Assembly (NCBI GenBank): GCA_951828515.1 | Contig: OX639992.1 | Coordinates: forward strand, 1,178,001-1,242,000 | DNA length: 64,000 nt | Direction of reading: 5' to 3' | DNA from: an uncultured Poribacteria bacterium | Lineage (GTDB): Bacteria > Poribacteria > WGA-4E > WGA-3G | Shown here: positions 35,467-36,892 of the stretch, in pieces | Position numbering within the stretch: the first letter of the stretch is position 1 | Layout of the letters: every line of letters begins with the position of its first letter | The notes under the pieces: model-generated | What the model was told of the DNA's origin: nothing | Database searches by the model: none | Seen by the model: the letters and a program-made list of their open reading frames with translations, nothing else | Position numbers and translations under genes: made by a program

Positions 35467-35542
35467 AGGGTAAGTTGCAGTTCGGTATTTCCTACTAAAA
35501 CCTATAAGAACCAGTTAGAATCTAAAGTTGTGTCATTTTTTC

Positions 35543-35571
35543 TTGACAATACTTTGAGAAAGTGCTATGAT
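35543..35571 (+). promoter_or_regulatory. Strong promoter of the structured RNA / tnpB remnant
   Basis: TTGACA at 35543-35548 and TATGAT at 35566-35571 with a 17-base spacer and TGC before the -10. The start site is expected near 35578, at the first helix of the structured region. Confidence 0.75.
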
Positions 35572-35575
35572 AAGT

Positions 35576-35659
35576 GTATCACGTGGCGAGGACTTTTCAC
35601 CTACCCACAAGGGTAGCCTCCTCGCCGACCGACAGTGAAAAGCGGTAAAAGCGTGATAC
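35576..35659 (+). ncRNA. Candidate structured RNA: nested pseudoknot in the 5' leader of a tnpB remnant
   Basis: Four perfect helices fill 84 bases. Outer helix: GTATCACG 35576-35583 with CGTGATAC 35652-35659. Helix A: GGCGAGGA 35585-35592 with TCCTCGCC 35119-type partner at 35619-35626. Helix B: CTTTTCAC 35593-35600 with GTGAAAAG 35635-35642. Hairpin C: CTACCC 35601-35606, loop ACAA, GGGTAG 35611-35616. A and B cross, so this is an H-type pseudoknot with a hairpin in its loop, and A, B and C abut without gaps on the 5' side. The order of strands is that of the nested pseudoknot of HDV-like ribozymes, but a P1.1-like pairing and a sure catalytic C are not evident. It could equally be a regulatory leader or transposon-end structure. 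Confidence 0.7.
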
Positions 35660-35669
35660 GTGAGAATCC

Positions 35670-36025
35670 ATGCCTTTACGAACACAGCAAATCGAACTGA
35701 ATCCGAATAACAAGCAATCTACGTGTATGTCTCAACATTGTGGCTATGCGCGCGTAGCGTTCAACTTTGGTTTGTCGTCGTTCAAAGTCGGTTTAGACCA
35801 AGACGAATGGCGAAGCCATGTTGACATCAAGCGTGAGTTTAACGCCGTCAAATACGATAAGTTTCACTAACGCAGCAATCAACCTGTGTCCTGTCTCATA
35901 AAGCACCGTCGCGGTGAGTTGCACCGAGACGCGAAACGCCTGTGGAGTTTCGGTAAGACCTCGTTGAGAGGCACGAAATGAAGAAGCAGGAAGTCGACAC
36001 AAACTCAAAGATCTATAGGTTTTGA
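35670..36025 (+). pseudogene. tnpB (IS200/IS605 family RNA-guided nuclease) remnant
   Basis: Frame 35670-35870 encodes LRTQQIELNPNNKQSTCMSQHCGYARVAFNFGL, the conserved N-terminus of TnpB-type proteins (helix with Asn-Lys-Gln and the CGxAR-FN pattern). At 35866 the sequence passes in another frame into TNAAINL, which matches the DRDxNAAxNL catalytic end of TnpB. A later stretch at about 35930 reads CTETRNACGVSVRPR and one at 35978 reads MKKQEVDTNSKIYRF, matching TnpB C-terminal tails after further frame changes. The RuvC core is therefore deleted and the protein inactive. ATG 35670 lies 10 bases after the last helix of the structured leader. Confidence 0.75.
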
Positions 36026-36070
36026 TAGGTTCTTTAGGTTTTGATAGGTTCTACACAACGGTGATTGATA

Positions 36071-36892
36071 ATGCCTGAAGGTCAAGTAGTTCACAAAACG
36101 GAAACACCTGTCACGGTTGAGTCGCTGCGAGCTGATTTTGAAGCACTCGGTATCGAAAAGGGGATGGTCTTACTCGTCCATTCGTCTTTGAGCGCGATGG
36201 GATGGGTCTGCGGCGGTGCTGTTGCCGTTATTATCGCACTTCAGGAAGTATTGGGGGAAACTGGCACGCTTGTGATGCCGACCCATTCGACTGACCTCAG
36301 CGATCCGAGTCAGTGGGAGAATCCGCCCGTGCCGGCATCGTGGTGGCAAACGATACGGGAGACGATGCCTGCCTATGATCCCGATTTGACCCCGACCCGT
36401 TCAATGGGCAAAATTGTCGAAACGTTCCGAAGGCAAAAAGGTGTTCTCCGCAGCATGCATCCACAGAATTCCTTTTGTGCGAGCGGACCTCAAGCCTCTT
36501 ATGTTACAGATAACCACCCCTTGGCGTTTGGCTTTGGTGAAGACTCACCACTTGGTAGAATCTATGACTTGCACGGTTCTGTTCTGCTCCTCGGTGTTGG
36601 GCACTCAAACAATACGTCCATACATCTCGCAGAATATCGGGCAGACTTCCCAACCAAACGCGTCGTCCGAGAGGGTGCCCCGATTTCACAGTCGAGTTCA
36701 AGGGTATGGAGTACCTTTGAAAATATCGATGTAGACGCTTCGGATTTTGATCGCATCGGTGAGGATTTTTTGCGATCTGATATGGGAAAGGTGGTTCGGC
36801 ACGGCAAGGTCGGTAACGCAAATTGCCAACTGATGCCGCAACCTGCTATGGTTGACTTTGCCGTCGATTGGCTTGAGAGAAATAGAATTTAG
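36071..36892 (+). CDS. Aminoglycoside 3-N-acetyltransferase (AAC(3)/YokD family)
   Basis: A 273-residue member of the antibiotic NAT family. VLLVHSSLSAMGWVCGGAVAVIIALQEVLGETGTLVMPTHS is the acetyl-CoA-binding N-terminal signature, and GSVLLLGVGHSNNTSIHLAEYRA holds the catalytic His and conserved HLAE. Family members acetylate aminoglycosides, but many environmental ones have unknown natural substrates, so resistance should not be assumed. ATG 36071 is preferred over TTG 36065. It starts 19 bases after the tandem repeat at the end of the tnpB remnant, which could have brought it or altered its promoter. Confidence 0.9.
   Translation: MPEGQVVHKTETPVTVESLRADFEALGIEKGMVLLVHSSLSAMGWVCGGAVAVIIALQEVLGETGTLVMPTHSTDLSDPSQWENPPVPASWWQTIRETMPAYDPDLTPTRSMGKIVETFRRQKGVLRSMHPQNSFCASGPQASYVTDNHPLAFGFGEDSPLGRIYDLHGSVLLLGVGHSNNTSIHLAEYRADFPTKRVVREGAPISQSSSRVWSTFENIDVDASDFDRIGEDFLRSDMGKVVRHGKVGNANCQLMPQPAMVDFAVDWLERNRI

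Follow-up and report, generated by a model that had tools for sequence, protein, structure and literature searches.

A conserved pseudoknotted 5' leader of Poribacteria tnpB genes, probably a translational switch

Structured RNAs of mobile elements and the tnpB leader

TnpB is the ancestor of the Cas12 nucleases and its gene is among the commonest in nature, and to our knowledge the means by which a transposon holds TnpB at a safe level are hardly known. In the pseudoknotted translational riboswitches and ribosomal-protein leaders a folded core competes with a helix over the ribosome-binding region. The HDV-like ribozymes are nested double pseudoknots in which P1 and P2 cross and P1.1 closes the core; their P1 extends ~7 bp from the cleavage site and is of near-constant length, and the catalytic C lies in the junction that precedes the P2 3' strand. 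Among the mobile elements, IS200 has a structured 5' leader on tnpA (PMC12594629), and the structured 5'-UTR of ISPpu9 tnp likely includes the ribosome site and permits more translation when its structure is weakened (PMC8450116). In tisB, a pseudoknot near the mRNA 5' end governs 30S access from a standby site ~100 nt from the ribosome site (PMC7708055). The TnpB omega RNA, or RAGATH-18 reRNA, is located at the 3' end of tnpB and guides the nuclease (PMC10278001, PMC11061315).

The segment described here stands between a promoter and a tnpB remnant in the window, by which we mean the whole 64,000-nucleotide stretch analysed (contig OX639992.1, positions 1,178,001 to 1,242,000) from an uncultured Poribacteria bacterium. 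We consider it probable that this segment is a conserved structured 5' leader of Poribacteria tnpB mRNA that acts as a bistable switch of TnpB translation. Comparison of related leaders, which is a comparison of sequences, supports five helices, two alternative pairings of the outermost helix P0, the promoter and the association with tnpB; from these we infer that the pairings alternate, that they control translation, and which of the two states is ON.

As a structured 5' leader on a mobile-element mRNA it resembles those of ISPpu9 and IS200, but each of those is a single structure on a transposase gene, and small RNAs take part there, whereas the tnpB leaders form a pseudoknotted family with hundreds of copies and two alternative partners for one strand. 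With the tisB standby element it shares a pseudoknot near the mRNA 5' end, although the two are unrelated in sequence and topology, and we know of no duplicated partner strand in tisB. The likeness to translational riboswitches and ribosomal-protein leaders lies in the proposed competition between a core and a covering helix; the tnpB leader differs from riboswitches in having no Rfam match and no conserved unpaired core that would hint at a small-molecule pocket, and in preceding a transposon nuclease gene. The omega RNAs are likewise structured RNAs of tnpB transcripts, but the leader models have no match at the 3' ends of the elements, where omega RNAs are found, and an omega RNA was rejected because the models match only the 5' side of the elements.

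Helices of the leader and their covariation

The preliminary description of this DNA reported a consensus promoter, TTGACA-17-TATGAT, followed by perfect helices of 8, 8, 8 and 6 bp, two of which cross within an outer helix. The promoter is present at 35543-35571 and all of the helices are found in the sequence; their coordinates were verified in the window, and every pair of P0 to P3 is Watson-Crick. The preliminary description missed a fifth helix, P4. When folded as RNA the window leader has a z-score of -4.4, with 0 of 200 shuffles equally stable. The features are as follows.

35469..36061, forward strand: internally deleted mobile element lacking tnpA, with ends GGTAAGTTGCAGTTCGG ... CTACACAACGG (end bases uncertain by 1-2 nt)
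35543..35548, forward strand: -35 box TTGACA, as read in the sequence
35566..35571, forward strand: -10 box TATGAT, after a 17-nt spacer; P0 begins 4 nt later
35576..35583, forward strand: P0 5' strand GTATCACG, the putative switch strand, with partners 35652-35659 or, alternatively, 35659-35665
35585..35592, forward strand: P1 5' strand GGCGAGGA, partner 35619-35626, 8 bp
35593..35600, forward strand: P2 (pseudoknot) 5' strand CTTTTCAC, partner 35635-35642, 8 bp, crossing P1
35601..35616, forward strand: P3 hairpin CTACCC-ACAA-GGGTAG, 35601-35606 paired with 35611-35616, 6 bp
35619..35626, forward strand: P1 3' strand TCCTCGCC, paired with 35585-35592
35628..35646, forward strand: P4 stem, ACCG (35628-35631) with CGGT (35643-35646), with the P2 3' strand inside
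35635..35642, forward strand: P2 3' strand GTGAAAAG, paired with 35593-35600
35652..35659, forward strand: P0 3' strand, proximal copy CGTGATAC, 8 bp with 35576-35583
35659..35665, forward strand: P0 3' strand, distal copy CGTGAGA, 6 of 7 pairs in the window, with the start codon 4 nt downstream of its end
35670..35870, forward strand: tnpB remnant, the first 66 codons and then an out-of-frame junction to the tnpB 3' end (PF12323 HTH_OrfB_IS605, E 3.3e-6)

The transcript start had been placed at the first pair of the outer helix. It is indeed expected in that helix, but because the P0 5' strand lies 4 nt past the -10 box, typical spacing would put the start inside P0, at ~35577-35579, rather than exactly at its first pair; if transcription begins at the third base of P0, the helix in the RNA would have 6 bp instead of 8.

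Related leaders fall into types A and B, which have all five helices, and a smaller type C, which lacks P3; the window leader is of type B. Compensatory changes, which the preliminary description proposed to seek in related tnpB leaders with a covariance model, are found. In an alignment of 13 divergent leaders from which the window and its close sisters were left out (A2), 96.8% of cells are paired and 17 pairs have two-sided changes, compared with 27-43% paired when the partners are slid. Since the sequences compared are related to each other and not independent, the counts given in this account overstate how many separate events there were. Crossing helices broken in homologous leaders had been named as evidence against a pseudoknot, and the opposite is seen: in 66 non-redundant type A leaders 97.8% of P2 cells are paired, with 42 different 5' strands, and the value falls to 64% when strands are swapped between leaders. 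P2 is also the most variable helix, with a mean pairwise difference of 0.45 among the copies of the window's genome compared to 0.14 for P1. We note that in the type A alignment (A3) P2 is hypervariable while the sequences of P1 and P3 are more conserved, and that copies with identical P2 in one genome are rare (6 of 406 pairs).

The remaining helices behave similarly. P3 has 99.4% of cells paired in type A leaders, and P4 has 97.3%, with A-U/U-A and C-G/G-C exchanges. The full-length type B sister L012 carries a compensatory U-A to A-U change in P2, and its P3 (CTGCAC/GTGCAG) differs from that of the window (CTACCC/GGGTAG) by compensatory substitutions. In type C leaders P0, P1 and P4 are predicted de novo by RNAalifold, and the P2 runs average 7.3 bp as against 5.3 in controls; here P2 connects the P1 loop to the P4 loop as a kissing-loop pair, closed by P0. 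Because P4 encloses the P2 3' strand, we describe the core as a kissing-loop fold.

The preliminary description also noted that the strand order is that of HDV-like ribozymes, and considered that the RNA might cleave itself; a ribozyme here would trim the tnpB transcript. The order P1-P2-P3-P3'-P1'-P2' does match in types A and B, P1 and P2 cross, and R2-type mobile elements use HDV-like ribozymes. However, no P1.1 is seen, as had already been remarked, and in its stead P4, with covariation of its own, is formed around the P2 3' strand rather than between P1 and P2; P1 varies from 8 to 11 bp among homologues (A2 and A3), and type C has no P3. At the place of the HDV catalytic junction there are 0 nt in type C and 1 nt, an A, in type A between the P4 5' strand and P2', and 3 nt in type B (ACA in the window), with no junction conserved across the types. 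Very few unpaired nucleotides are conserved, and conservation and covariation extend to P0, upstream of the point where cleavage would fall. Searches of Rfam at the gathering level with the window and ten homologous loci gave no match, and relaxed thresholds (E up to 10 or 5) gave meaningless ones, such as twister-P3 at E 5.6 inside tnpB; neither the HDV family models nor any other ribozyme model matched meaningfully at either level. On these grounds, an HDV-like or other self-cleaving ribozyme seems to us highly improbable.

Two partners for one strand

The 3' strand of P0 is present twice, the same 7-mer recurring after the proximal copy. Types A and B have the two copies in tandem (CGTGATA-CGTGAGA in the window, and elsewhere CCTGATA-CCTGATA, CTTGATA-CTTGATA and CACGATA-CACGATA), and in type C they are 8-13 nt apart, as in GAAACAG-aaacctttcaag-GAAACAG. 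Both copies match the P0 5' strand equally well. In type A, 94.8% of distal and 95.1% of proximal cells are paired, compared with 85-87% for swapped strands, and in type C there are 6.68 distal and 6.66 proximal pairs of a possible 7, compared with 5.15 in the control. Two-sided changes across the leaders are evident in the distal pairing also. Where the proximal copy has a mismatch or a G-U pair the distal copy is often perfect (L144, L069, L182 and the CTTGAGA/CTTGATA leaders), which argues that the distal copy is not mere idle duplication, and several leaders pair better with the distal copy than with the proximal one. Such three-way covariation among the P0 5' strand and both copies is as expected of a switch strand with two partners.

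Relative to the start codon the distal copy occupies about -11 to -5, and its end is ~2-6 nt upstream of that codon. Many type C leaders have an AGGA-like ribosome site joined to the distal copy; type A leaders have no clear Shine-Dalgarno motif, and what the distal pairing would hide is therefore less obvious in type A than in type C. The leaders thus contain two mutually exclusive predicted pairings, one of them over the ribosome-binding region and both kept by covariation. For the nested parts of the fold, the energies of the two states are nearly the same in type C (a median difference of 0.05 kcal/mol), whereas type A favours the proximal state by 3.1 kcal/mol with the pseudoknot not counted, such that the distal state in type A may need help. 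Of the alternatives raised in the preliminary description, a leader for translational control of TnpB gives the best fit to these data, with the P0 3' strand duplicated beside the start codon.

Transcription would begin at or just inside P0, and the RNA would form two hairpins, P1 (topped by P3 in types A and B) and P4, tied together by the crossing helix P2 as a kissing interaction. Pairing of the P0 5' strand with the proximal copy would close the core, and we take this to be the ON state, in which the kissing core is folded, the 5' strand is held on the proximal copy and the ribosome-binding region would be free. In the OFF state the 5' strand would occupy the distal copy, opening the core and covering the ribosome-binding region.

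A static leader, one that does not switch, would account for some of these features: it could be a 5' stability element or a structure for ribosome standby or recruitment, with the second copy serving as no more than an alternative register. P0 is at the extreme 5' end of the transcript, where stems protect mRNA, the 5' pseudoknot of tisB recruits 30S and S1 (PMC7708055), and type A has both the absence of a clear Shine-Dalgarno motif and the ~3 kcal/mol preference for the proximal state. It leaves unexplained, however, why the distal copy is complementary to a 5' strand that changes, why this is so in both leader types, and why it occupies a constant site by the start codon, and we regard a static leader as unlikely.

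If the leader is a switch, the first candidate for its regulator would be TnpB or its guide-RNA complex, which would then regulate the mRNA that encodes TnpB; the link between leader and tnpB makes this a natural choice. The wider proposal, that these leaders are a new bistable RNA class in which the kissing-loop core senses TnpB or the RNA-guided complex and sets TnpB translation, is a tentative one that we would sooner doubt than accept; if true, dozens of transposon nucleases per genome would be dosed by their own leaders. The diversity of P2 among the copies of one genome could limit cross-talk in trans, and the crossing helix may be free to diversify in such a way that these copies avoid interacting. 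A leader on about nine-tenths of the tnpB copies of a genome, together with two conserved pairings, would constitute dedicated expression control, and if this holds the leader could provide a natural switch part for compact genome editors.

Distribution of the leaders and their host elements

The description of a nested pseudoknot RNA that is driven by a promoter and leads into a tnpB remnant is borne out, and the RNA belongs to a large conserved family. A covariance model built from A2 with the crossing helix P2 omitted (R1) recovers the window site at E 1.5e-10 in a search of its genome, and within the window the leader is its single match. R1 identifies 40 copies in this 5.85 Mb single-contig Poribacteria genome, the window copy included, and, at a cut-off of E <= 0.001, a total of 649 matches in 50 of the 98 genomes searched. 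The genomes with matches include all 38 of the same genus (among them the window's own), together with some from its family and order. A search of 85 genomes of the phylum with a second model (R2), for type C, gave a further 89 matches, distributed over 23 of them. Close homologues in public genomes are from Candidatus Poribacteria, and the same architecture with very different sequence is seen in the leaders of other tnpB genes, both in the window's genome and in related ones. Outside the Poribacteria, R1 had no match in 40 genomes of another phylum and R2 none in one genome of a third, and the out-of-phylum genomes within the first R1 search gave no match, these being weak tests of wider spread. 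The preliminary description knew of no described RNA of this kind in this position, and we similarly found none that matches in Rfam, nor any description of one in the open-licence literature on tnpB leaders, Poribacteria RNA motifs and IS leaders. Structured mRNA leaders being known already, we regard the conserved kissing-loop tnpB leader with a duplicated partner strand as a new class among them.

The promoter and the gene context are as consistent as the fold. A promoter that keeps at least 9 of the 12 consensus bases lies ahead of 84 of 88 type A/B leaders and 46 of 52 of type C, compared with 5 and 3, respectively, in shuffled sequences, and the distance from promoter to P0 is 4 nt in 76 of the 88 type A/B leaders and a near-fixed 7 nt in type C. 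Most matches lead directly into a tnpB frame (83 of 89 for type A/B, 45 of 52 for type C), and those that do not are mostly at contig ends or are relics. Conversely, 41 of the 46 tnpB matches in the window's genome have a leader within reach. The leader ends 0-3 nt before the tnpB start codon, and is thus a structured RNA between the promoter and start codon of one type of gene.

This placement bears on whether the leader could instead be processed into a stable small RNA acting in trans, like the 5'tnpA RNA of IS200. In favour of this, the transposon transcript begins with a compact and stable fold, for which IS200 is a precedent (PMC12594629), and the leader is retained in non-autonomous copies that no longer code for full TnpB. 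Strict placement before the tnpB start and the two-copy P0 strand nonetheless favour control in cis, and we think there is very little chance that the leader acts in trans.

The leader is absent from elements whose transcript carries a Resolvase-family tnpA ahead of tnpB, although their ends and promoter are the same, and it thus appears to be retained where tnpB comes first in its transcript. In the IS607-type elements L048, L050, L051, L052 and L057, with a serine-recombinase tnpA and tnpB, the tnpA start is directly behind the promoter and the tnpA mRNA is probably leaderless. Y1 transposases (PF01797) are present in the genome, and none of the five such loci tested carries the leader. One truncated leader remnant (L146 300-396; genome 4278899) is directly before a 290-aa frame not linked to TnpB, and it is possible that the promoter and leader have been captured by another gene.

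The ends of the window element are shared with a copy at 5.02 Mb, with full-length tnpB elements and with IS607-type elements carrying a Resolvase-family tnpA; left and right ends are as in L048, L050-L052 and L057, and the tnpA of L050 is a PF00239 Resolvase. No tnpA is present in 35469-36061, and the element, whose ends are IS607-like, is a derivative that is not autonomous. Its copy at 5.02 Mb (L015; genome 5021501-5022081) shares 97% identity and the internal tnpB deletion but has other flanks, and this derivative seems to have been mobilised in trans. The full-length sister L012 encodes a 364 aa TnpB with OrfB_IS605 and Cas12f1-like_TNB domains. Isolated pieces of this element family's right-end region also occur in the genome (L009 and L010; genome 61592-61681 and 1637798-1637911), for which no matching left end was found.

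A transposon-end structure, also considered in the preliminary description, does not agree with this arrangement: the leader is optional, being absent from the tnpA-carrying sisters with the same ends, and it is internal, lying ~110 nt into the element and downstream of the promoter. That reading was rejected on both counts. A DNA-level element could alternatively be a repressor operator of inverted and direct repeats, in keeping with the location in a mobile element and with the P0 motif, which is an inverted pair plus a direct repeat by the promoter. An operator gives no reason, however, for the covariation of crossing and nested helices with G-U pairs, and we consider a DNA-level element highly improbable.

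Leaders and tnpB genes do not share the same relationships. The window leader (35576-35669) is 78% identical to that of L073 (1407-1500), whereas the starts of the two tnpB genes are 50-56% identical; with L013 (609-705) the leaders are 56-60% identical and the tnpB starts 85%. From these alignments it appears that elements have exchanged the leader as a cassette.

A gene with an Antibiotic_NAT domain (36065-36892), that of the aminoglycoside 3-N-acetyltransferase family, has its likely start ~10 nt from the right end of the window element (window 36051-36071), and the insertion may alter expression of this gene.
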